A stretch of DNA of 64,000 nt from contig JARGOX010000021.1 of assembly GCA_029233925.1 (NCBI GenBank), positions 1 to 64,000 of the forward strand. Direction: 5' to 3'. Positions 2,987 through 45,738 of the stretch are shown in pieces (within the stretch, counting starts at the first letter, position 1; each line of letters starts with the position of its first letter). Source of the DNA: Rhizobiaceae bacterium (GTDB lineage: Bacteria; Pseudomonadota; Alphaproteobacteria; Rhizobiales; Rhizobiaceae). Below the pieces are notes generated by a model. That model was not told where the DNA came from. It saw only the letters and a list, made by a program, of their open reading frames with translations, and searched no databases. Position numbers and translations under genes: made by a program.

Positions 2987-3307
2987 TCAGGCCTGGCGTT
3001 CCGGCACATGTACGATCAGGCCGTCAAGTTCAGGCGTAACCTTTATCTGACAGGACAGCCGCGATGTCGGACGCACATCATAGGCAAAATCAAGCATATC
3101 TTCTTCCATGACCTGCGGTGAACCGACCTTTTCGGTCCAGGCGTCATCGATATAGACATGACAGGTGGCACAGGCACAGGCACCACCGCATTCGGCCTCG
3201 ATGCCGGGAACGGAATTGCGGACAGCATTTTCCATGACCGTCGACCCGTCTTCGGCATCAATATCAAAATTCACGCCATCATGGGCAACGATTGTCAGTT
3301 TTGTCAT
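2987..3307 (-). CDS. [2Fe-2S] ferredoxin, adrenodoxin type
   Basis: Small acidic electron carrier of 106 residues. The cluster ligands are visible as Cys40-x5-Cys46-x2-Cys49 and a distant Cys86 in the segment RLSCQIKV, typical of vertebrate-type/FdVI ferredoxins that serve P450s and other oxygenases or Fe-S assembly. It is the first gene of the operon with its probable reductase and folPBK. It could supply any [2Fe-2S]-dependent enzyme of the cell; no dedicated partner other than the reductase is visible. Confidence 0.92.
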
Positions 3308-3432: not shown

Positions 3433-3813
3433 CTATCGTGACAACCCGGATATGAAATTCTCAACCTCAACAACTGCGTTGGTCAGTGCCTCATTCAACA
3501 TCTGGTCCCTGGTGTCCTTTTCAAGGCTCTCGGCAGCTTGCGACACACAGAATGCGCCCACGTTGGATGCAGACCCCCGCAACGCATGAACAACCGCAAC
3601 CCGATCGGCGCTTTTAGTCTCCTGACCTGTTTCACACAGCTGGTTGACACATTGCCTGGCCTGACGGGCAAAAAGACACAGAACCGTCGTTTCCGTTTCC
3701 TTGTTTCCCATGGTGCTGAGCGCCAGATGTACCAGATCAATGGGACGCGCGCGCGATGGATTGCATTTTAATGAATGTTGTGGAGCTTCGAAGAATTCCT
3801 GGTGCATTGCCAT
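3433..3813 (-). CDS. Histidine phosphotransfer (HPt) domain protein
   Basis: A 126-residue protein whose core HALRGSASNVGA contains the phosphorylatable His (about residue 76) in the HPt consensus (HxLKGSAxxxGA). It has no kinase or receiver domain and is therefore probably a phosphorelay shuttle. A GGGAAAGGG sits 6 nt before the ATG. It diverges from the giant coiled-coil gene across about 420 bp, so the two may share control. The histidine kinase and response regulator partners are not in this window. Confidence 0.82.
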   Translation of the reverse strand: MAMHQEFFEAPQHSLKCNPSRARPIDLVHLALSTMGNKETETTVLCLFARQARQCVNQLCETGQETKSADRVAVVHALRGSASNVGAFCVSQAAESLEKDTRDQMLNEALTNAVVEVENFISGLSR

Positions 3814-4233
3814 AATTTACCCTTTCCCAATGGTATAAAGTCCACTGCACAGCAGAATCCTCCGGATCGGATTAATAGCGGTCAGGAAAAGCCGGGATAT
3901 TTGTATATATGGTTAACGCATGGTAAATGCCGGAAACAAAGAGAATTTTGACGAAAGCATCAATTGCCGTCATAGTTCATTAAGCAAGCGAACCCTTTCT
4001 TGGCGCTATAGAATTTGTTTCGTAACCATATGTGTGCAACAAATGCACGCTGGCACGTACGGTTCTTGCCTTGGTGAGACTGCGCGTGAGGGGTGTTCGT
4101 GTGATTGTCGGTTCTGTTCGAACCTGAAAATCACGCAAAAAAGTCGGCAAAGATCACTCCTTCCGGATAACCGGACCGGTTACCCAGGTGGTGTCCCGGG
4201 ATGTTGGGTTCAGAGTACGAGGCATTGATCAAA
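3814..4233. promoter_or_regulatory. Divergent control region between the HPt gene and the giant repeat gene
   Basis: About 420 bp without a convincing gene. It must hold the promoters of both flanking genes. At 3913-3927 there is TTAA-N7-TAAA, one base from the CtrA consensus TTAA-N7-TTAA used by cell-cycle genes in alphaproteobacteria; this is suggestive only. Nothing else of clear meaning was seen. Confidence 0.4.
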
Positions 4234-7200
4234 ATGGCAAAAAGAAGCGCACAAACCAGTTCAGTTGAAGATCCTCTCAAGGCCTTGGAAGACGCTTTGC
4301 GTCTGGACCTGGAGAGGGATGACGCTGCGGATTCATCAGATGAGCAGTCCTTCGAGGACCTTGAAGCTCAAGTTGAATCGGCCGCTGCCGAGCTTGCGAA
4401 ATCAGATAGTGATACTGCGCGAGCGGCATCAATGAACAAGCGGTCCGCCCCAGGCAGGATCGCGAACCGGCCACAGCCGTCCAGGTCCTCGCAGGAAAGC
4501 AACTTCAGCGCTGAACCTGCCCGCAATGCCCGTGCGCAGACCAAACAACAGGTCAGGCCTCAGCCTCAGCCCCAGCCACAACCCCGCCCTCAACAGGCGC
4601 CGAAAGCGGTTGCACGGCCTGTTCAGCAATCATTTGCACCAGCCAATGACGACAGCCGGGAGTCGCGCGCCGCAATTATGCGGACACTTGACGGAAAAGG
4701 TGGCCGCTCAACGAGAATTGCCACTTATATACTCTCTGCCCTATGGGTTCTGGGTGGCCTGGTCTTTACCAATCTCATCTACGGCTCAAGAATGTGGCAG
4801 ATCGAGTCTTTTGCCGAATTGGCGATCAATCCTCAATATCTGACCGCTTTGCTGGCCATTGTTTTGCCGGTTCTCATTTTCCTTGCTTTCGGTCTGATGA
4901 TCGCCCGCGCTCAGGAAATGCGCGCCGTCGCCAAATCCATGGCTGAACTTGCCATCCGGCTTTTTGAACCGGAAACCATGGCAACGGACAACATCATGCG
5001 TGTCGGCCAGGCCGTTCGCCGGGAAGTCTCGGCAATCAACGAAGGCATTGAGCGAACCATTGCCCGTGCCTCTGAGCTGGAAACGCTTGTCCATTCGGAA
5101 ATCAATGCCCTGGAGCACAGTTATTCCGACAATGAAGTGCGCCTGCGCAGTCTGGTAGAAGGCTTGAGCAACGAACGCGAAGCGATCGTGGTGCACTCCG
5201 AACGCGTGCGTGCCTCCATCGTCAGCGCCCATGAGCAGCTGCGCGAAGAACTGGAGACTGCCGGCGACGAGATCACCAATCGACTGTCCACATCGGGCAA
5301 AGCGGTTGCCGAATTGCTCGACACGCGCACGACCAGACTTTCCGGTCAGGCAGAAGACCTGACACAGTCTGTTTCCGACCTGCTGCAGAAGCGGACCGAA
5401 GCTCTGATGTTGTCATTCGGCAATTCGGGTCGCGCTCTGGCAAAGGAATTTGACAGCCGTCTGGAAGCCCTGCAGGACACATTGAGTGAGCACGGCCAAA
5501 GTCTGCTCGGTGAATTCGAGACCCGGGCCTCCTCGCTCGACAACAACACCAAAAAGCTCAATACAATCCTCAACGAACGGGCGCGTCAGCTCAACGAGAC
5601 ACTGGTCACCCGCACCCGGGAAATCAATGAGAGTCTGAGCGTTGGCGAACAGGCACTCAGCGGCGGACTGGACCATGTCATTGAATCGCTCAATGCCAAG
5701 CTTGATGAAAAGTCCGTGAACTTCCGTCAAAGCCTTCAGCATTACACAGAAGATGCCATGAGCGATCTGGATGTTCGTTCCGGGTTCTTTGAAGAGAGAC
5801 TGCAAAGCACGATCTCGCAGCTCAATTCGGCCTTCGATGAACGGGTTCTGGAATTCTCCACAACCTTCGATGAGCGTAGCGGCACACTGTCAGCGAAGCT
5901 CAGTGAAAATCTTGACAGCATCAACAATACACTTGTTGGTGGCACCGGTTCGATTGAAGGCATCCTGAAATCAAACGCAGGCCGCATTTCGCAAACGCTC
6001 TCTGAGCGGACGCAAAACCTTGAAGCAATTCTGGCAAGCAGCAGCAGCGAAATCGAGCAGAAACTGGAAGCCAAGGTCGGCGCAGTAGAAACGGCCATGG
6101 AAAATACCTCCAACCGCGTCGATTCCCTGATGCATAACGGCACCGAGAACCTTGGCCGCGCCGTCGGCGAACGGACAGCTGAACTTGCCGCCACACTGGA
6201 TGCAAGTGCCAGCAATATAGCCGGATTGATCAAGGATGGTGCACATACGATCAACAGAGCTGCCGTCGACAATGCGCAAAACCTCGAGGCCACTTTCACC
6301 ACCGGAGCAGAACGTCTGGAAGGTCTGATCGGATTTGGAGCGGCTGCGATCAACAATGCAACGTCTGAAAGTGCCGAGAAGCTTGAGTCCACCCTTGGAT
6401 CAAGCGCTGAGCGCCTGCAGACCCTCATCAAGGACGGTACGCAAGCCATACGCACCGTCTCCGATGACGGAACACAATCCTTGTCTGAAACACTCGGTTC
6501 AAACGCTGAAAGGCTGCAGACGCTTATCAATGAAGGCACACAAGCTATTCGCACCGTCTCCGATGACGGAACACAATCCTTGTCCGACACACTTGGCTCG
6601 AACGCCAAACGGCTGGAAGGCCTGCTGAACAATGGTGCAGCGGCCGTTGGCCGCGCGGTGACGGAAAACACCCATGCGCTTGCCGTGACGCTTGGCTCCA
6701 ATGCCGAGCGCATAGACGGTCTGCTGCGAGAGGGTACGGGCGCCATCACAAAATCTGTTGCAGACAGCACGGAAGTGCTTTCTTCAACACTTGGCTCAAA
6801 TGCAGAGCGCATCGATACCATCATGCGCGAAGGTACCGGCTCCATCGCAAACTCGGTTTCGGAACATGGCGAAGTCATAGCCAGCACGCTGGGTGCCACA
6901 GCCGAACGGGTGAACAGCATTTTGAATGAAGGGGTCGGCACCATCAGAAATTCTGCTGCACAGAGCGCAGAACTGATGGCCACGACCATGGGATCCAATT
7001 CTGATCGCATGGACAGTATTCTGCGCGAGGGTGTTGAATCGATCACAACATCAACCGCAAAGAGTGCAGAACTGCTTGCCACGACCATGGGATCCAATTC
7101 TGATCGCATGAACAGCATTCTGCGTGATGGCGTTGATTCGATCACGCTTTCAACCGACGAAAGCGCAGAGCGTCTGGCAAATACAATGGGGTCCAATTCC

Positions 7201-10200
7201 GATCGCATGAACAGCATTCTGCGTGATGGCGTTGATTCAATCACACTTTCGACCGCCGAGAGCGCTGAGCGTCTGGCAAATACAATGGGGGCCAATTCCG
7301 ATCACGTCAGTACCATTCTGCGTGAGGGTGTTGATTCAATTACACTTTCGACAGCCGAAAGTGCAGAGCTGCTTGCCAGCACCATGGGCGCCAATTCCGA
7401 TCGGGTTGACACCATCATGCGTGAGGGCGTCGGGGCGATTACCAATTCAACAAGGCAGAGCGCCGAAGTTCTTGCCCGCACAATGGGTGACAATGCCGAA
7501 CGGGTTGATACCATTTTGCGTGAGGGCGCCGGAGCAATTACCAACTCTGCCGAGCAGAGCTCAAACATGCTGGCCAACACGATCGGGTCCAACGCCGAAC
7601 GGGTTGAGTCCATTTTGCGCGAGGGTTCAGGAGCGATCACCAACTCTGTAGAACAGAGTGCAGAACTGCTTGCCACGACCATGGGATCCAATTCTGATCG
7701 CATGAACAGCATTCTGCGTGATGGCGTTGATTCGATCACGCTTTCAACCGACGAAAGCGCAGAGCGTCTGGCAAATACAATGGGGTCCAATTCCGATCGC
7801 ATGAACAGCATTCTGCGTGATGGCGTTGATTCAATCACACTTTCGACCGCCGAGAGCGCTGAGCGTCTGGCAAATACAATGGGGGCCAATTCCGATCACG
7901 TCAGTACCATTCTGCGTGAGGGTGTTGATTCAATTACACTTTCGACAGCCGAAAGTGCAGAGCTGCTTGCCAGCACCATGGGCGCCAATTCCGATCGGGT
8001 TGACACCATCATGCGTGAGGGCGTCGGGGCGATTACCAATTCAACAAGGCAGAGCGCCGAAGTTCTTGCCCGCACAATGGGTGACAATGCCGAACGGGTT
8101 GATACCATTTTGCGTGAGGGCGCCGGAGCAATTACCAACTCTGCCGAGCAGAGCTCAAACATGCTGGCCAACACGATCGGGTCCAACGCCGAACGGGTTG
8201 AGTCCATTTTGCGCGAGGGTTCAGGAGCGATCACCAACTCTGTAGAACAGAGCTCGAACATGCTGTCCACGACCATGGAGTCGAACGCCGCACGGGTTGA
8301 TGCCATTTTGCGTGAGGGTGCTGGTGGCATTACCAGTGCAACGGCACAAAGCGCAGAAATGCTTGCCACCACTTTGGGTGCCAATGCCAACCGGGTGAAT
8401 TCCATACTGCGTGATGGCGCAGGAGCGATCACAAATTCTGCCGAACAGAGCGCGGAATTGCTCGCCACGACATTGGGAGCCAATACCGATCGCCTGGACA
8501 ACATCATGCGCGAACGCTCAGATGAGATCGCGAGTTCCGTTGCAACGCACACGGCTGAAATATCCAATACACTTGGAGCGAATGCTTCCCAGATTGACAG
8601 CCTGATGCGTGAAGGCACTGAATCTCTTGCCAACTCGGTTGCAGGACACACCCGGTCTATCTCCAGCACGCTGGGAGAAAATGCCGAGCAATTCGACACC
8701 ATCCTGCGCAACGGTGCCGGTTCGATTGCAAGCTCCATCGTCGAAAATACGGACATGCTGGCCAGTACGCTTGGAACCAATGCTGACCGGATTGATAATC
8801 TGATTCGTGAAGGCACCAGTTCCATTGCCCATTCCGTCGTTGATAACACGGAGACACTTGCTGCGACCCTGGAAACCAATTCCGCGCGGATCGAAGGCTT
8901 GATGGGTACGGGCAACGAGAGAATTGCCCAGACACTATCGGGTGAAATCATGGCCATGTCATCCAAACTGGATGAGAGTGTTGCCGCCATGGATACAACA
9001 CTGGCGACCAACGTCGAACTCATTGGCACCACAATTGATACCCGGACAGCCAATATGGAGGACCGCCTGCAGATCATGGACAATGTCCTCAATGCCGGCC
9101 TCGAAAGTGTCAATACGACGATCGAAAGCCGCGCACTGGGAATGGCAGCGACCTTGCGTGAAACAGTGACGCAGACCGTCGAGCAGATGGATTCCGAAGC
9201 CCGCCGCTCCGCACAGTCTCTGGAGGGTATTGGCCATGACTTCTCAACACAGCTCAATCTGGCTGCAGCGAAATACTCCGATGCTGTCGAAATGCGGTTG
9301 GCTGAACGTACAGACTCGTTGAACAAGCAATTTGCGGAATTGACCGGTCACCTGGCTGAAAGCGAAACCGGTATTCTTGGTGCAGCAAGCGCCATTACCA
9401 ACGCAGCCCATGAAGCCGGTGAAAAGGTCGGCTTGCAGGCCCAGACAATTGTTTCGCAGTTTGCTGACAGTGAGAAAGCGCTTGATGCCCGTAACATGTC
9501 GATCAGAGCCACTCTGGACGAGCACACACGCGAACTGAACTCCATGCTGTCCAGCCGTTCGACAGAACTGTCCAAGCTGATCGACGAGCAGGCTTTGCCA
9601 CTGGTTGAAGCCTACGCACAGCGCGGCCAGCAGATCACCATTGATATCCGGGAAATCACCGCCGCCAGCGCCGAGCAATTGCAGTCTCAAAGTACTGCAC
9701 TTGTTGATGCATTGACGTCCCGCACCCGGGAAACGCTGGATGCCATCGGCAGCGCCGGTAACAGTCTGAAAACGGAAGTGACCGAACTGATTGCTGAACT
9801 CGGCCGAAGCAATTCGTCCATATCCAGTCTCATCAGCAGCACGGCATCGACACTTGAAGAGGTGGATACACGCCTGACCAGCACAACCGAGAAATTCGCT
9901 GGTTCTGCTGGTCGTGCGGCAGAAATATTTGCTGACTCGACAGAAATACTCAAGACCAACATTTCTCAGCTGGACACCATATCCAGCGAGACTCTTGGCC
10001 GTGTGAGCGCAATTGCCGGCAGCTTCGACGACCATTCCAAAGTCTTGGCTTCGGCATCGGATCTGCTCGGATCGGCACAATCAAGCCTGTCCAACACTCT
10101 GGAAGAACGCAAGGAAGCCCTTGACGGTCTTTCTAGCGGATTGGTCACACGTTCCGAGGAAATCGAGAAGAACATGCGTTCTCTCGAATCCATCGTTGAA

Positions 10201-11415
10201 GAGGCATTCGGCAAGGCGAGCGAGCGGGCGAGCAGTTCTGCCAAAGCCCTGTCGGGCAGCCTCTCCTCCTCTATCGAAACCATCAGCGCCATGCTGTCGG
10301 ACACGGAAAGCCGCTCTGTCACAACGGCTGACACAATGAAACAGGCGATCCGTGAAGCAGTAGAAGATGCTGTATCCCGCTTCTCTGGCGCGACGAATGA
10401 AATCCGCCAGTCTGCCAATGAAATCCGCGAGGAACTGAACAGCACACGCAGTGAAATCAAGAAGGGCATATTTGATCTTCCTGAAGAAACCCGTGAAAGC
10501 ACCGCTGCCATGCGCAATGCCGTGTCAGAACAGATCAAGGCACTTCAGGATCTGTCTGCCATTGTGGAGCATTCATCGCACATGCTGGATCACTCCGGTC
10601 CACAGGACAGGCCGGCAAAGCAGAAACCAGTCGCACCTGCGCCAGTCGAAGCACCGACACCAGCAGCACCATCCGTTGTTGAACTGAAAGTAGTGGAGAA
10701 ACCTGTTGTAGAAGCAAAGGTCGCTGAGGCGCCGGTGGCGGAAGTCGAAGTACCGGTAGCCCAGAAAGCTGAATCCAGGATGGACCTGCGCGGTGGCATG
10801 GGTGTCATGCACAGTTCCAGCCAGTCAGCCCAGACAACGCAACAGACAACGCAACAGGCAAGCCAGTCTTCGTCAAAGGCCTCACTTGCACCCGTACCGG
10901 TACCCGAACCAACTGATGCGGTCTCCACCCCCGCACGCAAGCCGCAAGGTGAAGGTTGGGTCAGGGATCTTTTGAGAAGCGCTTCACGTCAGCAAGACGG
11001 TGAAAGCAACCAGCCACCACGGGGCGCAGCGAACAGCTCCAGCAACAATGCGCGTGGCAGAAACCCACGTCAGGTCGTTGAATCGCTCAACTCACTGTCG
11101 GTCGATATCGCCCGGGCAATTGATCATGATGCGTCGGTGGAACTATGGCGTCGTTACCAAAGCGGCGAGCGTGATATCTTCACGCGCCGGCTCTATACCC
11201 TCAAGGGACAGAAGACCTTTGAAGAGATCAAGAGCAAATATGCAAGGGAGCCAGAGTTCACGACGGCGGTTGATCACTACATTGCTGACTTTGAAAAGCT
11301 GCTTGCCGATGTCGCAAAGAATGATCGCGACAAAGTCATAACCCAGACCTATCTGACTTCGGATACGGGCAAGATCTATACAATGTTGGCGCACGCAAGT
11401 GGCCGCCTGAAATAG
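4234..11415 (+). CDS. Giant membrane-anchored coiled-coil repeat protein, growth-pole-ring (GPR)-like
   Basis: Protein of about 2393 residues. Order of parts: acidic N-terminal segment; a Pro/Gln-rich stretch (near 4550-4600); two membrane segments (about 4723-4790 and 4840-4905); a very long Ser/Thr/Ala/Glu-rich helical region; a Pro-rich linker (10600-10950); and a compact C-terminal domain of about 120 residues (11065-11415, including FTRRLYTLKGQKTFEEI). The middle holds 29 units of 33 residues (6109-8970). This layout matches the GROWTH POLE RING protein of Agrobacterium, often annotated 'kinesin-like', which forms a ring at the growing pole. The family call is from remembered architecture. 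The ATG at 4234 has a GAGG 11 nt upstream; an in-frame ATG at 4201 is the alternative. A terminator follows. Confidence 0.75.
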   Translation: MAKRSAQTSSVEDPLKALEDALRLDLERDDAADSSDEQSFEDLEAQVESAAAELAKSDSDTARAASMNKRSAPGRIANRPQPSRSSQESNFSAEPARNARAQTKQQVRPQPQPQPQPRPQQAPKAVARPVQQSFAPANDDSRESRAAIMRTLDGKGGRSTRIATYILSALWVLGGLVFTNLIYGSRMWQIESFAELAINPQYLTALLAIVLPVLIFLAFGLMIARAQEMRAVAKSMAELAIRLFEPETMATDNIMRVGQAVRREVSAINEGIERTIARASELETLVHSEINALEHSYSDNEVRLRSLVEGLSNEREAIVVHSERVRASIVSAHEQLREELETAGDEITNRLSTSGKAVAELLDTRTTRLSGQAEDLTQSVSDLLQKRTEALMLSFGNSGRALAKEFDSRLEALQDTLSEHGQSLLGEFETRASSLDNNTKKLNTILNERARQLNETLVTRTREINESLSVGEQALSGGLDHVIESLNAKLDEKSVNFRQSLQHYTEDAMSDLDVRSGFFEERLQSTISQLNSAFDERVLEFSTTFDERSGTLSAKLSENLDSINNTLVGGTGSIEGILKSNAGRISQTLSERTQNLEAILASSSSEIEQKLEAKVGAVETAMENTSNRVDSLMHNGTENLGRAVGERTAELAATLDASASNIAGLIKDGAHTINRAAVDNAQNLEATFTTGAERLEGLIGFGAAAINNATSESAEKLESTLGSSAERLQTLIKDGTQAIRTVSDDGTQSLSETLGSNAERLQTLINEGTQAIRTVSDDGTQSLSDTLGSNAKRLEGLLNNGAAAVGRAVTENTHALAVTLGSNAERIDGLLREGTGAITKSVADSTEVLSSTLGSNAERIDTIMREGTGSIANSVSEHGEVIASTLGATAERVNSILNEGVGTIRNSAAQSAELMATTMGSNSDRMDSILREGVESITTSTAKSAELLATTMGSNSDRMNSILRDGVDSITLSTDESAERLANTMGSNSDRMNSILRDGVDSITLSTAESAERLANTMGANSDHVSTILREGVDSITLSTAESAELLASTMGANSDRVDTIMREGVGAITNSTRQSAEVLARTMGDNAERVDTILREGAGAITNSAEQSSNMLANTIGSNAERVESILREGSGAITNSVEQSAELLATTMGSNSDRMNSILRDGVDSITLSTDESAERLANTMGSNSDRMNSILRDGVDSITLSTAESAERLANTMGANSDHVSTILREGVDSITLSTAESAELLASTMGANSDRVDTIMREGVGAITNSTRQSAEVLARTMGDNAERVDTILREGAGAITNSAEQSSNMLANTIGSNAERVESILREGSGAITNSVEQSSNMLSTTMESNAARVDAILREGAGGITSATAQSAEMLATTLGANANRVNSILRDGAGAITNSAEQSAELLATTLGANTDRLDNIMRERSDEIASSVATHTAEISNTLGANASQIDSLMREGTESLANSVAGHTRSISSTLGENAEQFDTILRNGAGSIASSIVENTDMLASTLGTNADRIDNLIREGTSSIAHSVVDNTETLAATLETNSARIEGLMGTGNERIAQTLSGEIMAMSSKLDESVAAMDTTLATNVELIGTTIDTRTANMEDRLQIMDNVLNAGLESVNTTIESRALGMAATLRETVTQTVEQMDSEARRSAQSLEGIGHDFSTQLNLAAAKYSDAVEMRLAERTDSLNKQFAELTGHLAESETGILGAASAITNAAHEAGEKVGLQAQTIVSQFADSEKALDARNMSIRATLDEHTRELNSMLSSRSTELSKLIDEQALPLVEAYAQRGQQITIDIREITAASAEQLQSQSTALVDALTSRTRETLDAIGSAGNSLKTEVTELIAELGRSNSSISSLISSTASTLEEVDTRLTSTTEKFAGSAGRAAEIFADSTEILKTNISQLDTISSETLGRVSAIAGSFDDHSKVLASASDLLGSAQSSLSNTLEERKEALDGLSSGLVTRSEEIEKNMRSLESIVEEAFGKASERASSSAKALSGSLSSSIETISAMLSDTESRSVTTADTMKQAIREAVEDAVSRFSGATNEIRQSANEIREELNSTRSEIKKGIFDLPEETRESTAAMRNAVSEQIKALQDLSAIVEHSSHMLDHSGPQDRPAKQKPVAPAPVEAPTPAAPSVVELKVVEKPVVEAKVAEAPVAEVEVPVAQKAESRMDLRGGMGVMHSSSQSAQTTQQTTQQASQSSSKASLAPVPVPEPTDAVSTPARKPQGEGWVRDLLRSASRQQDGESNQPPRGAANSSSNNARGRNPRQVVESLNSLSVDIARAIDHDASVELWRRYQSGERDIFTRRLYTLKGQKTFEEIKSKYAREPEFTTAVDHYIADFEKLLADVAKNDRDKVITQTYLTSDTGKIYTMLAHASGRLK
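6109..8979 (+). repeat. 29 tandem 99-bp units encoding 33-residue repeats
   Basis: Each unit reads approximately S/N-x-A-E-R-V-D-S-I-L-R-E-G, then A-I-T-N-S, then a variable stretch ending L-A-T-T-M-G. The position equivalent to the first Ser falls at 6109 and at 8881, exactly 28 x 99 bp apart, so there is no net insertion or deletion across the tract. Thirty-three residues is three hendecads (11 residues), the period of right-handed or apolipoprotein-like helical rods. Weaker 11/22-residue repeats continue outward on both sides. Confidence 0.9.
7061..8252 (+). repeat. Perfect 594-bp tandem duplication inside the repeat tract
   Basis: The stretch 7061-7658 is repeated at 7655-8252 with no difference I could find on reading both copies base by base; the offset is 594 bp, or six 33-residue units. 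Flanking units differ from each other at many positions, so this block was copied recently, by slippage or unequal crossover, or else is an assembly artefact. Confidence 0.92.
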
Positions 11416-13751: not shown

Positions 13752-14354
13752 TCAGATGATTTTCAGTGCCCAGGCAACGATATCATTCATGATCTTGCCG
13801 TTGGCTCTATCCAGCGCATCAATGAAATCTGCGTTGGTCACACCCGCTGCTGCTGCAGTGGACTGGAACACCCGCTGTGCTTTCACCACGCCGTTGCGAT
13901 CATTGATGATGCGAACGGATATTTCCACCACCGCTGTATCCGTGCCGTTGCTGATAATTTCGAACGATCGGATTGTTGGTGAAACCAGATAGTCGACGGC
14001 AATACCGTCACCGGGTTTTCCGACACCACCAAGCCGGCCGGAATCCTCGAACGCATCGACCAGATTTTGTTGCACCAGTTTCGGCAGGTTGTCGTTCCAC
14101 TGGGATCTGGCGAGATACTGAATGGCAGATGGAGACGTGCGCACAACAATATTCGAACCATCGAGCGATTTTACAGCCGACGGATCTGTCACAACGATCT
14201 GGCGGCGCCGGGAATTCGGCCCCTTTACCGGTGCGATCTTTGTCAGTTCAAACGTATCGTTCTTGGGTCCGCTGATCACTGAACAGCTGCCAAGAGCCAT
14301 TGTGCCGATCAACAGCGCCACGATAGAAATCGATTTACTGGTCCAGTAAGTCAA
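13752..14354 (-). CDS. ABC transport auxiliary lipoprotein (PqiC/DUF330-like)
   Basis: A 200-residue lipoprotein. It starts at TTG 14354 with AAGGGGG about 4 nt upstream, has a hydrophobic signal segment and a lipobox LGSC with the acylated Cys at residue 24. The rest (VVTDPSAVKSLDGSNIVVRTSP, then SQWNDNLPKLVQQNLVDAFEDS) matches the ABC-type transport auxiliary lipoprotein component family. It is the last gene of the four-gene Mla-like lipid transport operon and probably docks the MCE protein at the outer membrane or in the periplasm. Confidence 0.88.
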   Translation of the reverse strand: MTYWTSKSISIVALLIGTMALGSCSVISGPKNDTFELTKIAPVKGPNSRRRQIVVTDPSAVKSLDGSNIVVRTSPSAIQYLARSQWNDNLPKLVQQNLVDAFEDSGRLGGVGKPGDGIAVDYLVSPTIRSFEIISNGTDTAVVEISVRIINDRNGVVKAQRVFQSTAAAAGVTNADFIDALDRANGKIMNDIVAWALKII

Positions 14355-14417
14355 AGAACCCCCTTGATCCTGCCATCGAGCAGGCCATTCTAGCTAACAG
14401 CACTCTGCGACACGTTG

Positions 14418-15791
14418 TCAACGCCGTCTTCGCCCGTCAAATTGTTTCACTTCACCTGATGTTCCAAACAACAGGCTTTGCGGTTGGCTGCCAATCTCGG
14501 AGATCGTTCGCTCAATACGGGTGACAGAGCGTCTCGCCTCGGAAATCAGCGCCTCAAAATCACGCAGTCCAGTACCCGAGAACCGTTGCAGATTCTCGGC
14601 GATCGGACCAACATGAGCGTTGATTGTATTGGCAACTTCCTGAAAGGTTTTAAGGGTTTTCTTGGCCTCGGTGACCAGACCTTCAGCATCACTGTCGCCC
14701 ATGACCCCATCAAGCTTGTCCAGCGTTGCCTGCACCTTGAGGGCCACATCATTAAGGCGCCCGGACAATTGATTCACATTGGTGATGATCGCATCGATGT
14801 CTTCATTGCGATTGCCGATTGTATCGGCAACGGTGACAAGGCTGGCAATGCCTTGGCGGGCCTGCACACTCGCTGCTGAAACATCATCAACCGTCTGCGT
14901 GATCTTGGCTGGATCCACGGCAGCCACGAGCGTATCCACCCGGCCAAGCGTGACATCAGCATTCTCACCCAGTTTCGAAAGATTGGTTGCCGCGGTCTTG
15001 AATTCTTCCAGCATCGGCTGAAAATCAGACGATGCATCAGCAACCTGTGAACTGATTTTTTCGACATTTTTCACGATCGCCGATACTCTTGCCGGCTCGA
15101 CCGCAGCCACCAGAGCCTCAGCCTTCGTCATGACACCCTCGAGCGTGCCCGACACATCTTTCAATGTAGATGCAAGTGACGACGCACTCTTGAGGAAATC
15201 GCTGACACCATCAGAGTTTTCAGCCAGCGCAGCAGAAAATTGCTCGGCATTCTCCACGGTTTTTGCCAAAGGCCCCTTGGAGGCCGTCACGAACTCTTCA
15301 ATACCGGTCACCGCCTTGTCGACCCGGCTTAGGATATCCTCAGCGGTTGCCAACAGGTTCGTCACACTGGATTCTTCTGCCGTGAGAGTAGCATAGCTCC
15401 CTCTTTCAACCGACTGCTCAAGTATATTGTCACCGCCGGTGTCGCCACCACTGAGTTCGATATGAGACTGCCCCGTTAATCCCTGGATACCAAGCTTCGC
15501 CTTGGTGGTCGCAAAAACCGGGGCCGAGGCACGCACTTCCGTCATGGCCAGAACGTAGTTTGGATCCACGCCGTCAATGGTCAATGAGGTCACGGAGCCG
15601 ATACGAATTCCGTTAAAGAGAACCGGCGCACTGACGCTGAGACCGCTGGCCGAACCCGGAATCCTGATTTCCAATTGTGCCATCTCTCCGGATTTTCCGT
15701 AGGTTGCCATCCAGTAGACAAACCCGAAAGCGGAAAAGATGACAGCAAGCGTAAACACGCCTACAATCGTGTAATTGGCCTTGGTTTCCAT
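14418..15791 (-). CDS. MCE (MlaD-like) domain substrate-binding protein
   Basis: Periplasmic part of a lipid ABC transporter, 457 residues. One N-terminal membrane anchor (IVGVFTLAVIFSAFGFVYWMA) is followed by the MCE domain (GLSVSAPVLFNGIRIGSVTSL, then IQGLTGQSHIELSGG). The remaining 300 residues form a long helical tail. MCE domains form hexameric rings that pass phospholipids across the periplasm. The gene lies between the ATPase (74 nt upstream) and the lipoprotein. Confidence 0.92.
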   Translation of the reverse strand: METKANYTIVGVFTLAVIFSAFGFVYWMATYGKSGEMAQLEIRIPGSASGLSVSAPVLFNGIRIGSVTSLTIDGVDPNYVLAMTEVRASAPVFATTKAKLGIQGLTGQSHIELSGGDTGGDNILEQSVERGSYATLTAEESSVTNLLATAEDILSRVDKAVTGIEEFVTASKGPLAKTVENAEQFSAALAENSDGVSDFLKSASSLASTLKDVSGTLEGVMTKAEALVAAVEPARVSAIVKNVEKISSQVADASSDFQPMLEEFKTAATNLSKLGENADVTLGRVDTLVAAVDPAKITQTVDDVSAASVQARQGIASLVTVADTIGNRNEDIDAIITNVNQLSGRLNDVALKVQATLDKLDGVMGDSDAEGLVTEAKKTLKTFQEVANTINAHVGPIAENLQRFSGTGLRDFEALISEARRSVTRIERTISEIGSQPQSLLFGTSGEVKQFDGRRRR

Positions 15792-43416: not shown

Positions 43417-45738
43417 TCAACCCCGACGCTTTTCCCGGGTCTTGGCAATGGCATCGTTGAGACGCTTGTCGCGGTCATACATGTCAGCGTAGTAGCCGAC
43501 TGAGCCGTCTTCATTCGGCCAGGCAGTAAAATAGGACACATAGACCGGAATTTTGCCAGGAACCGGTTCGGCCATATTGCGACCCTGCGCGATCTGCTCG
43601 GCGATATGTTCACGTGTCGACCCGAGTACAGCCGCTGCCATTCCGCGCGGATCATGCAGACGAATGCAACCATGGCTCAGCGCACGGCTTTCACGATTGA
43701 ACAGGCTCTTGGATGGCGTATCGTGCATATAGATCGCGTGCTTGTTGGGAAACAGTATTTTCAACTCGCCAAGAGCGTTCTTCGCTCCGGGTGGCTGCCT
43801 TATGTCCACGGGGATCGACGCCGAACCAACAGAATACCAATTGATATTGGTCGACGCGACGCGCCGTCCCCTGCGATCGGTCAATTCATAACCCTGTCGG
43901 TCCAGATAGGACGGATCCCTGCGCAGTTGCGGCAACATTTCATTGACGATGATCGAACGCGGAACGCCCCAATAGGGGTTGTATTCCACGGTCTCTATCT
44001 CATCATGAAAGAAATTTGTCTGGTTCGATTTCTTGCCGACAACCACCCGCATGGAAAGTTCATCACGGTCATTGTTGATATAGGTCGCCTGATAGGCCGG
44101 TTGATTGATGAATACATGGCGCGAGCCCAGATTGCGTGGCAGCCAGCGCAGACGCTCCATCGCCAGTACAATCATTTCTTTTTTGCTGGCCGTGGAAACA
44201 TCCGTCAATTTGCTGATGGTATTGCGCCCAATGATGCCATCCGCGGAAAGACCATTTTCCTTTTGAAAATCCTTGACCATGGCAACCAGCTCAGGGCTGT
44301 AGAGATGTCGGTCATCCATCCCGTATTCCATCAAGGTCACACCATGATCGACCAATAGCTTGTCGGAACCACGCTTGCGAATGGCCGCCACGACATTCTT
44401 CAGCTCCGGATTTTCCGCACCCGGTTTCAGGAATGTTCCTTCGGCAATTTCGATCTGATTTTCGGCCTCGGCTGCATTCAGCACAGCAAGCTCATGTGCA
44501 AGCGCCTTGAACTGACGATTGTCAGGATTGCTGGCTGCAAGAGCGGCCGCGGCATCGGTTGCGGAAGCAAGATTTTCAAGTGCCGAAACCAGGTCGACAT
44601 CCTTGCGCTTGAAGTCATGGTATCCTGAAAGCCGGTTCGGATCGACACGACCACGGGTGGCGTCAAGTACATAGGAAAGCACCTGAGTGCTCAATTTCAT
44701 TTCAAACAACATCAGCGCGCGCTGTCTTTCATCCAGCGCCGAAGGATCAAATTCACTGGAAGGCAAATCGATCAGATAGTCTGCTGCTGAAAGACCGTAG
44801 GCATCTGCCTGGGAAAGCACATCCAGAACGACGCGTGCGCGCTCATTGACATCTGTTCCCTCAACCCAGACAAATGAGGGATTGGCAGTGTAATAGGCGA
44901 TAAGCGCCTCACCAACTTCACCCAGAGCGTTCAGCTTTTCCCCCTGCAGGTACTGCCGCGCCTCTAGAAATGGGTTTTCAACCGCGGGGCTTTCCATGGC
45001 TTCAACGACCGGCGCCGCCGTGCGCTCGGGAACGGTTGCGGATATAGCGGGCTCTTCCGCCATTGCCGGCTCTTCCGCCATTTCCGGTGTTTCCGCGACA
45101 GCCGCTGCTTCATCACCACCGACATCAACCGTTTCACCGGGTTTTATTTTCTCTGCAGCTTGAGCCGGCACATCTGCATGTGGAGGCGATGCAGCCTTGA
45201 TAGCCATGACTTGCGATGCCGAAAGATCATCTGCGGTAGCAAGTTCAACACCCAAGGGAGGAACGCTGGGGGTGGCTTCGATATCCGCCAAAGCCTCAAC
45301 CGTCACCGCATCGGCTGGTGTAACAGAAGCCGATTTTGAAATCGAGGAGGTTACCTCCATTTCGACACCGGCATCCGTGGTATCCAACGCCTCTTCAGCA
45401 TCGAAGCCGGCCGGAGTCTCTGGCTTGGCTTCTACGATTTTTGCGGGCGCAATCTCCATTTCAGCCAGAATCGTCAGATCAACTGGCTTGAGAATATCCG
45501 GTTTGTAATTATAGAATTTTGGCGCACTGATTTTGGGTGCAGGCTGAGCGACCCTTTGCTCTGCCTGCAGCTCACGTTCCGGAAGGCGCTGGTCACGCGG
45601 TTTATTGCCGAAAATGATTTCAAAAAGCGAGCGTTGTTGAGCATTTGCCGGTTCGGTCGTGGGCATCACCACACCTGCTGCAAGCACACACGCAAGCGCA
45701 AACAAGCCTTTGCGCGTTCCAATTTTCCTGGTTGTCAA
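43417..45738 (-). CDS. Large L,D-transpeptidase (YcbB/LdtD type)
   Basis: About 773 residues, exported, forming 3-3 peptidoglycan crosslinks. From TTG 45738 (GGAGG 8 nt upstream) a signal peptide ends in ANAQ. Then comes a long Ala/Glu/Pro-rich linker, a scaffold domain, a peptidoglycan-binding domain (LVAMVKDFQKENGLSADGIIGRNT) and the YkuD catalytic domain with HDTPSKSLF and the Cys motif SHGCIRLHDP. Polar-growing Hyphomicrobiales rely heavily on such enzymes. ATG 45771 upstream has no ribosome binding site. Confidence 0.93.
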   Translation of the reverse strand: MTTRKIGTRKGLFALACVLAAGVVMPTTEPANAQQRSLFEIIFGNKPRDQRLPERELQAEQRVAQPAPKISAPKFYNYKPDILKPVDLTILAEMEIAPAKIVEAKPETPAGFDAEEALDTTDAGVEMEVTSSISKSASVTPADAVTVEALADIEATPSVPPLGVELATADDLSASQVMAIKAASPPHADVPAQAAEKIKPGETVDVGGDEAAAVAETPEMAEEPAMAEEPAISATVPERTAAPVVEAMESPAVENPFLEARQYLQGEKLNALGEVGEALIAYYTANPSFVWVEGTDVNERARVVLDVLSQADAYGLSAADYLIDLPSSEFDPSALDERQRALMLFEMKLSTQVLSYVLDATRGRVDPNRLSGYHDFKRKDVDLVSALENLASATDAAAALAASNPDNRQFKALAHELAVLNAAEAENQIEIAEGTFLKPGAENPELKNVVAAIRKRGSDKLLVDHGVTLMEYGMDDRHLYSPELVAMVKDFQKENGLSADGIIGRNTISKLTDVSTASKKEMIVLAMERLRWLPRNLGSRHVFINQPAYQATYINNDRDELSMRVVVGKKSNQTNFFHDEIETVEYNPYWGVPRSIIVNEMLPQLRRDPSYLDRQGYELTDRRGRRVASTNINWYSVGSASIPVDIRQPPGAKNALGELKILFPNKHAIYMHDTPSKSLFNRESRALSHGCIRLHDPRGMAAAVLGSTREHIAEQIAQGRNMAEPVPGKIPVYVSYFTAWPNEDGSVGYYADMYDRDKRLNDAIAKTREKRRG

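Follow-up and report, generated by a model that had tools for sequence, protein, structure and literature searches.

The closest described relatives of the protein reported here are GPR of Agrobacterium tumefaciens (Atu1348) and RgsE of Sinorhizobium meliloti (SMc00190). Previous studies placed these proteins in a ring at the growing pole and described misshapen cells upon their loss (PMC8262873, PMC7327166). Unipolar growth is organised by GPR (published length 2115 aa; 2089 aa for RgsE), whose authors do not settle how a helix of such length would build a 200-nm ring. The RgsE paper terms its protein "repeat-containing", with no period given in the passages concerned, and the GPR domain paper uses neither "repeat" nor "hendecad" in its main text. 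Among open-licence PubMed Central titles and abstract openings, we found no repeat or phase rule for GPR/RgsE. Streptomyces Scy and FilP, which are likewise cytoskeletal or polar, are described as long hendecad coiled coils of substantially differing length (PMC9858780), although they are actinobacterial and carry a DivIVA-like N-terminal motif. For Smc arms, both engineered and natural lengths were reported to follow a periodic constraint (PMC5344682).

We analysed a stretch of 64,000 nucleotides from a Rhizobiaceae bacterium, hereafter the window. Its forward strand carries, at 4201..11415, an open reading frame of 2404 aa, which on homology is the orthologue of Agrobacterium GPR and Sinorhizobium RgsE. 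The link to the GPR family, which a first, sequence-only reading had drawn from the architecture, is borne out at both conserved ends: the N-terminal membrane region shares 56–57% identity over 180 aa with the orthologues of A. tumefaciens B6 and S. meliloti 4H41, and the C-terminal domain shares 83% and 88%, respectively, over 116 aa. The ATG-started reading frames of these orthologues encode 2115 and 2094 aa and fit the published GPR and RgsE.

Similar to GPR and RgsE, the protein combines two membrane spans, an apolipoprotein-like helix and a C-terminal domain, among the same neighbour genes. All of its parts lie on the forward strand. The N-terminal segment (aa 1–174, 4201..4722) includes a Pro/Gln-rich stretch and precedes the two predicted spans, aa 175–195 (4723..4785) and a second within aa 207–239 (4819..4917), where the Kyte-Doolittle 19-aa mean reaches 1.72 and 2.93, respectively. 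The long coil resembles the apolipoprotein-like Pfam family PF01442 (E 8e-69, 13 stretches). It consists of a portion N-terminal of the repeat array (aa 241–636, 4921..6108, hydrophobic period about 3.65), the array itself (aa 637–1593, 6109..8979) and a C-terminal portion (aa 1594–2110, 8980..10530), and is closed by a conserved anchor containing FDLPEET (aa 2076–2121, 10426..10563). A linker of freely varying length (10564..11037), part of which served as a control, leads to the conserved C-terminal domain of 125 aa (11038..11412), modelled by AlphaFold2 as six helices (pLDDT 84.8) and matching no Pfam family at E 0.1. A difference from the known proteins lies in the repeat: the main period is 22 or 44 residues in Agrobacterium coils and 22 in those of Sinorhizobium, whereas the window coil contains 29 units of 33.

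The units start at 6109 + 99k (k = 0..28) and are contiguous, with zero indels across the array, so the exact 99-bp register of 29 33-residue units, as first read from the letters, stands. With a 33-column profile trained on units 3–28 themselves, 28 units exceed the 99th percentile of the maxima from shuffled sequence, every spacing being 33; the 29th (aa 1561) scores under the threshold. Identity at a lag of 33 residues is 0.59 in the tract, compared with 0.086 ± 0.009 in 1000 residue shuffles (maximum 0.119), and just 0.10 at a lag of 11. Neighbouring units are 21–94% identical, the first and last junctions being the weakest (21% each). The array lacks Pro and Cys, has a hydrophobic fraction of 0.36, an aromatic fraction of 0.003 and a net charge of −2.2 per 33 residues, and shows a helical moment of 0.355 (0.135 ± 0.013 when shuffled). 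Its hydrophobicity peaks at a period of 3.667 (power 160 over 957 residues), and Ala, Ser, Gly and Asn occupy several columns of the hydrophobic face; an 11/3 period with small residues on that face is what characterises a hendecad. An AlphaFold2 monomer model of 396 tract residues is nearly all helix, but at a pLDDT of 52.9 with five sequences. On this modelling, a very long regular rod is plausible.

Within the array, positions 7061–7658 equal 7655–8252 base for base (598/598), revealing a perfect tandem duplication with an offset of exactly 594 bp, or six units; the first copy occupies 7061..7654 and the second 7655..8252, with identity through 8252, both on the forward strand. Since six units are perfectly duplicated, they are not independent evidence that indels have been rejected. 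The array of the nearest relative, L031, counts 22 units, that of the window 29. L031 is titled as a MAG, and assemblers can collapse or mis-build an exact repeat of 594 bp. It would be possible that the copy number was inflated in the window or collapsed in relatives, several of which are titled MAG, given that a perfect repeat of this length is difficult for short reads. We consider such an artefact very improbable as an account of the tract; it could account for the six-unit block only, leaving the register, the divergence among the other units and the broader variation in length unexplained.

The evolutionary record of the family suggests a rule, in which length is free, helical phase is mostly fixed, and basic and acidic flanks lie on opposite sides. 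We compared 125 loci, from the best 80 of 111 relatives and 45 more, in a set without G015, G044, G045, G050, G052 and G059; eight further genomes were treated as identical to named loci, and L070, L078, L084, L146 and L151 were excluded for weak anchors. The anchors are gap-free in all retained rows except L144. The tree, a quick LG+G4 one with far rows on long branches, holds 121 rows, of which 119 differ (two identical pairs). From anchor to anchor, the coil measures 488–2364 aa over the 121 orthologues, with 95 distinct lengths; among the ten members of the window's clade, it measures 1143–1836 aa. Compared across these sequences, coil length is not conserved and changes freely in evolution. 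In Smc, by contrast, the match span is almost fixed: of 31 genomes of the order, 21 have one full-length match among the matches listed, and in these it runs from 1138 to 1145 aa, a spread of 7 aa. The GPR/RgsE family keeps phase and not length. The sequence-only reading had proposed that indels are rejected and that rod length or phase matters. The first point is wrong as worded, as indels are common, though most preserve helical phase; of the second, length falls away, while phase is upheld by the comparison, with slippage possibly explaining part of it.

The signal for phase is found on the tree, in pairs and in gaps. On the tree, the modulo-11 class of the coil length shifts 54 times, compared with 83.4 ± 2.7 times when shuffled (z −10.9); the other moduli from 5 to 13 give z of −1.4 to −5.2, and the linker of the same proteins shows no modulo-11 signal (z −0.4). 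Among close independent pairs, chosen greedily from pairs of unequal length, the coil difference is a multiple of 11 in 14 of 22 and ±4 modulo 11 in 6 of 22; for the linker, it is a multiple of 11 in 1 of 25. The signal drops when far pairs are included: of all 48 independent pairs, 19 differ by a multiple of 11 and another 11 by ±4. Aligned coil gaps are multiples of 11 in 35 of 47 cases, and a further 7 of the 47 equal 7 modulo 11. Taken together, these sequence comparisons suggest that the helical phase of the coil is mostly conserved.

Repeat periods vary with lineage: the window has 33 residues, Agrobacterium 22 or 44, one group of Ensifer 29, and others 44 or 88. Read literally, the expectation that units vary in multiples of 11 residues fails, as periods of 29, 36, 40, 47, 58 and 62 residues occur. 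However, tandem periods of at least 22 residues take 22 distinct values, every one of the form 11a+18b. Because the non-multiples of 11 all have this form, the rule looks like one of helical phase rather than of strict hendecads.

Unequal crossing over in existing repeats yields multiples of the local unit, and part of the modulo-11 signal may therefore come from repeat slippage. Another possibility would be that phase is under no selection at all, units that happen to be multiples of 11 slipping homologously so that the whole pattern is mutational. Most gaps do correspond to a local unit or to several of them (22, 29, 33, 44 or 84 residues), and the six-unit duplication is perfect. Previous work in the GPR domain paper points the same way, as the 20-residue, out-of-phase deletion A-IV-1cc gave "significant complementation"; a strict phase rule is thereby disfavoured, and a single phase break seems to be tolerated to some degree in the laboratory. 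The 263-residue deletion of the A-IV-4 domain complemented partially. Going by the stated limits and sizes, 263, 346 and 20 or 21 residues are lost in the published internal deletions; as none of these numbers is divisible by 11, phase was not kept the same in these constructs. A purely mutational origin nevertheless appears unlikely to us. Eight of the 47 gaps are of 11 residues, with exact identity of at most 10 bp at that lag, and four of these single-hendecad gaps share just 33–45% identity with the adjacent 33 bp; the other four, at 67–82% identity to a neighbour, would fit slippage. The unit sizes themselves follow the form, as all nine between 20 and 60 residues fit 11a+18b while 11 of the 41 numbers in that range qualify. 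Finally, L037 contains a 40-residue step (33+7) inside a 33-residue array, with an adjoining copy that is 92% identical.

The flanks of the hydrophobic stripe are also ordered. Basic residues lie on one side in all 121 coils and acidic residues opposite in 117, and the permutation z for this asymmetry is below −3 in 114 of the 121 and above 0 in none. It is weakest in the tract reported here (z −2.2 for the array, or −1.9 once the duplicate is removed, and −0.65 for the C-terminal coil). In Smc arms of 12 proteins, in segments of just 320 aa, z never reaches −3. Smc arms are antiparallel. The control coils are not clean, however: in 10 of the 12 proteins, the first Smc arm shows a lean in this direction (at period 3.5, z lies between −0.25 and −1.73; one value of −2.5 occurs at 3.62), and the MlaD coil has a z of −1.6. 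Across the family, the asymmetric charges favour parallel packing, weakly so in this tract. The GPR authors proposed instead a coil that doubles back as antiparallel hairpins or bundles, with each chain contributing to a compact focus, in accordance with their 50-nm foci and with the three-helix bundles in their homology models of two GPR domains. With the one-sided pattern, antiparallel pairs would bring like charges together, the array contains no proline, and some length changes, the 11-residue gaps, are not hairpin-sized; we therefore rate this folding as quite unlikely.

A different use of the stripe is suggested by human perilipin 4, which is described as 29 tandem 33-mers without deletions or insertions, with a hydrophobic fraction of 0.35, an aromatic fraction of 0.002, a moment of 0.257 and a net charge of +1 for the helix (PMC5889406, PMC8064757). 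The tract could likewise be a giant amphipathic helix on membrane or lipid, the stripe facing the lipid and the length setting avidity. The window tract is similar in unit, number and composition (29 × 33, 0.36, 0.003 and 0.355), the 11/3 helix, near-absence of aromatics and one-sided basic residues are shared, and Pfam labels the coil apolipoprotein-like. However, perilipin 4 is net positive, unfolded in solution and coats lipid droplets, whereas all 121 coils carry a net negative charge, which for the tract amounts to −2.2 per 33 residues. The HeliQuest lipid-binding discriminant has a cut-off of 0.68. Only 4% of 18-residue windows reach it, a weak argument since perilipin 4 would score low too. 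A lipid coat seems rather unlikely for the tract.

The best reading, to which we give about an even chance, is a helical cable anchored in the membrane, its length evolvable and its phase fixed, with chains packed in parallel. The two spans predicted from hydropathy and homology would hold the protein in the inner membrane, and the helix, some 1,850 residues long, bears a greasy stripe with a period near 11/3. Duplication and deletion quickly alter helix length, and lineages repeat different units. Most surviving changes, built from 11- and 7/18-residue steps, bring the stripe back to the same face, where selection, beyond the mutation mechanism, would keep it. The most likely reason would be that parallel chains lie side by side in an almost straight hendecad coiled coil or helical sheet and serve as struts of the polar growth ring; a change in length could be borne there, but the lateral packing should stay unbroken. 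Against this cable, the published 50-nm foci misfit a fully extended 275-nm strut. More tentatively, and with the balance on the doubtful side, the polar ring of the whole order may be made of parallel cables of fast-evolving length, perhaps tuning reach or ring size, with a family-wide 11/18-residue quantum rule for lateral packing; lineages would time and again homogenise the cable with a new unit, here one of 33 residues that converges on perilipin 4.

The gene is the single match in its own genome. Its C-terminal domain is present in 60 of the 61 genomes searched, the window's own included, with no match in the genome search of G004. On the reverse strand lie an Hpt-domain gene (3433..3813) and a 2Fe-2S ferredoxin gene (2987..3307). 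In the fetched stretches of the 125 orthologue loci, homologues of the ferredoxin occur in 115, of the Hpt gene in 107 and of folP in 88.

The 2404-residue ORF (4201–11415, plus strand), recognized from its sequence, is filed as a putative orthologue of the Agrobacterium tumefaciens growth-pole-ring protein GPR and its Sinorhizobium meliloti counterpart RgsE. Its membrane region (180 aa) is 56–57% identical, and its C-terminal domain (116 aa) 83–88% identical, to those of A. tumefaciens B6 and S. meliloti 4H41, which bears out the family link proposed by the sequence-only reading. The B6 ORF, read from one of its ATGs, has the 2115 aa published for GPR (PMC8262873), and the 4H41 ORF has 2094 aa from its first ATG, the published RgsE length being 2089 aa (PMC7327166). 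These two proteins align here at 46–49% identity; the value stated for GPR and RgsE is 42% (PMC7327166). Pfam assigns an apolipoprotein-like helix (PF01442, E 8e-69) to the window protein, and its last 166 residues match a single place in their own genome and 60 of 61 genomes of the genus, family and order, their own counted. The conserved C-terminal domain (11038–11412, plus strand) has no Pfam match at E 0.1 and is predicted by AlphaFold2 to form six helices (pLDDT 84.8).

The array (6109–8979) consists of 29 units of 33 residues (profile consensus ADRVDSILREGVGAITNSTAESAELLANTLGSN), starting at 6109, without insertion or deletion between units. The lag-33 identity is 0.59, against 0.086 ± 0.009 in 1000 shuffles, and the exact register described earlier stands. 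By unit profile, 28 units exceed the shuffled threshold and the 29th is degenerate. Six units are a perfect copy (7061–7658 identical to 7655–8252, zero mismatches), so that the regular spacing inside 7061–8252 is uninformative on selection. In the nearest relative, L031, the best matches to the window units differ from them at 3–10% of bases. Neither proline nor cysteine occurs in the tract, where aromatics make up 0.3% and charged residues 21%; the hydrophobic peak is at 3.667 residues (moment 0.355).

Human perilipin 4 is also described as 29 tandem 33-mers lacking deletions and insertions (PMC5889406). Its composition and 29 × 33 count are close to or the same as those of the window tract, whereas the moment is higher in the window and the net charge opposite. 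We take this likeness, compared on repeat count, composition, moment and charge, as convergence; perilipin 4 is also taken as a rival mechanism for the coil, and the rival readings are not mutually exclusive. Two other orthologue loci, L106 and L092, show residue-level lag-33 repetition (top and third lag, respectively), and the window unit profile matches each once; independent amplification of a 33-residue unit is possible there.

The sequence-only reading held that indels had been rejected, which suggested to it that rod length or phase matters. Coil length was measured from after the second membrane span to the FDLPEET motif at the coil end in 121 proteins, drawn from the window and 125 loci after five had been dropped. 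It ranges from 488 to 2364 residues, with 95 distinct values (window, 1836; L031, 1605; the relative L111, 1143), and the length part of the claim is not supported. By comparison, Smc match spans within this order lie at 1138–1145 aa, counted over the 21 genomes, out of 31, that have a single full-length match among those listed. At a helix rise of 0.15 nm per residue, the coil would measure about 275 nm in the window and 171 nm in L111. The 600 nm given for 1,700 residues (PMC8262873) is an extended-chain length, and an alpha-helix would give 255 nm.

The phase part is supported by the comparison, although repeat slippage may account for some of the signal. Nine of the ten proteins in the window clade have anchor distances equal to 10 modulo 11; the tenth, L037, is 7 off this class and contains a 40-residue step (33+7) within its 33-residue array, the adjacent copy being 92% identical. 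On a tree built from the non-repeat protein parts, the modulo-11 class of the coil changes 54 times, against 83.4 ± 2.7 with shuffled labels (z -10.9). The remaining moduli in the 5–13 range have z values of -1.4 to -5.2; at modulus 11, the variable linker of the same proteins, between the coil end and the C-terminal domain, has z -0.4. Among 22 independent close pairs (within 0.15 changes per site), the coil length differences comprise 14 multiples of 11, six of ±4, one 3 and one 5, as compared with 1/25 multiples of 11 and 7/25 of ±4 for the linker; when far pairs are added, the coil values become 19/48 and 11/48. The 47 aligned gaps from the close pairs are 0 modulo 11 in 35 cases, 7 in seven, 3 in three and 10 in two, the last two classes being 58 and 87 (multiples of 29) plus two 3-residue gaps.

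A purely mutational pattern, with phase not under selection, appears unlikely to us. Existing units are gained or lost whole through unequal crossing over, and the multiples of 11 are thus partly mutational. However, eight of the 47 gaps are single hendecads (11 residues), with exact identity of at most 10 bp at that lag, and those with little neighbour identity go beyond slippage; because four of them are 67–82% identical to the neighbouring 33 bp (the others 33–45%), only four are clear cases. Moreover, the repeat units vary by lineage, yet all 22 distinct periods of at least 22 residues in DNA-level tandem arrays are in frame and equal 11a+18b, nine of them falling in the 20–60 range, in which 11 of the 41 numbers have this form. 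The linker follows no such rule. Together with the Smc spans, these observations indicate that coil length varies freely whereas phase is largely constrained.

The hydrophobic stripe is flanked by basic residues on one side in all 121 orthologues and by acidic residues on the opposite side in 117, with a permutation z below -3 in 114. In the window, z is -3.5 over the whole coil but weaker in its parts, at -2.2 in the array and -0.65 in the C-terminal coil. No arm of 12 control Smc proteins reaches -3, the first arm leans in the same direction as the GPR coils in 10 of the 12, and one control MlaD coil gives -1.6. The family-wide asymmetry is strong, though these controls leave its generality uncalibrated. 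Opposite charges on opposite flanks would fit parallel neighbours and misfit antiparallel ones.

Published GPR deletions bear on the phase rule, their sizes being taken from the domain limits and sizes in the paper text. Residues 232–494 (263) and 1036–1381 (346) were removed, as were coiled-coil stretches whose size is put at 20 or 21 residues, although one pair of coordinates would give 22 (PMC8262873); none of the sizes 263, 346, 20 and 21 is divisible by 11. Outcomes were mixed: the largest deletion retained very little function, whereas complementation was partial for A-IV-4 and for its coiled-coil deletion, and good for the 20-residue A-IV-1cc deletion (PMC8262873). The last result speaks against a strict phase rule, and in-phase deletions of equal size are the missing control for the series. 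With the lean of the first Smc arm, it lowers our confidence in two readings: that the coil is a membrane-anchored helix of evolvable length and fixed phase, to which we give even chances, and that the polar ring is made of parallel cables of fast-evolving length under an 11/18-residue quantum rule, the unit converging on perilipin 4, which we propose only tentatively. The slippage-only reading gains slightly in weight but stays an unlikely one.

Within fetched stretches of unequal length, homologues of ferredoxin, Hpt and folP occur at 115, 107 and 88 of the 125 loci. The small Hpt-domain protein beside gpr (3433–3813, minus strand; PF01627, E 1.2e-5) places a conserved phosphorelay component next to a gene for polar growth. 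The nearby MlaD and ABC auxiliary lipoprotein genes (13752–15791, minus strand) have homologues at 52 and 61 of these loci, likewise counted within the fetched stretches. A short 18-bp tandem repeat lies at 45050–45096.
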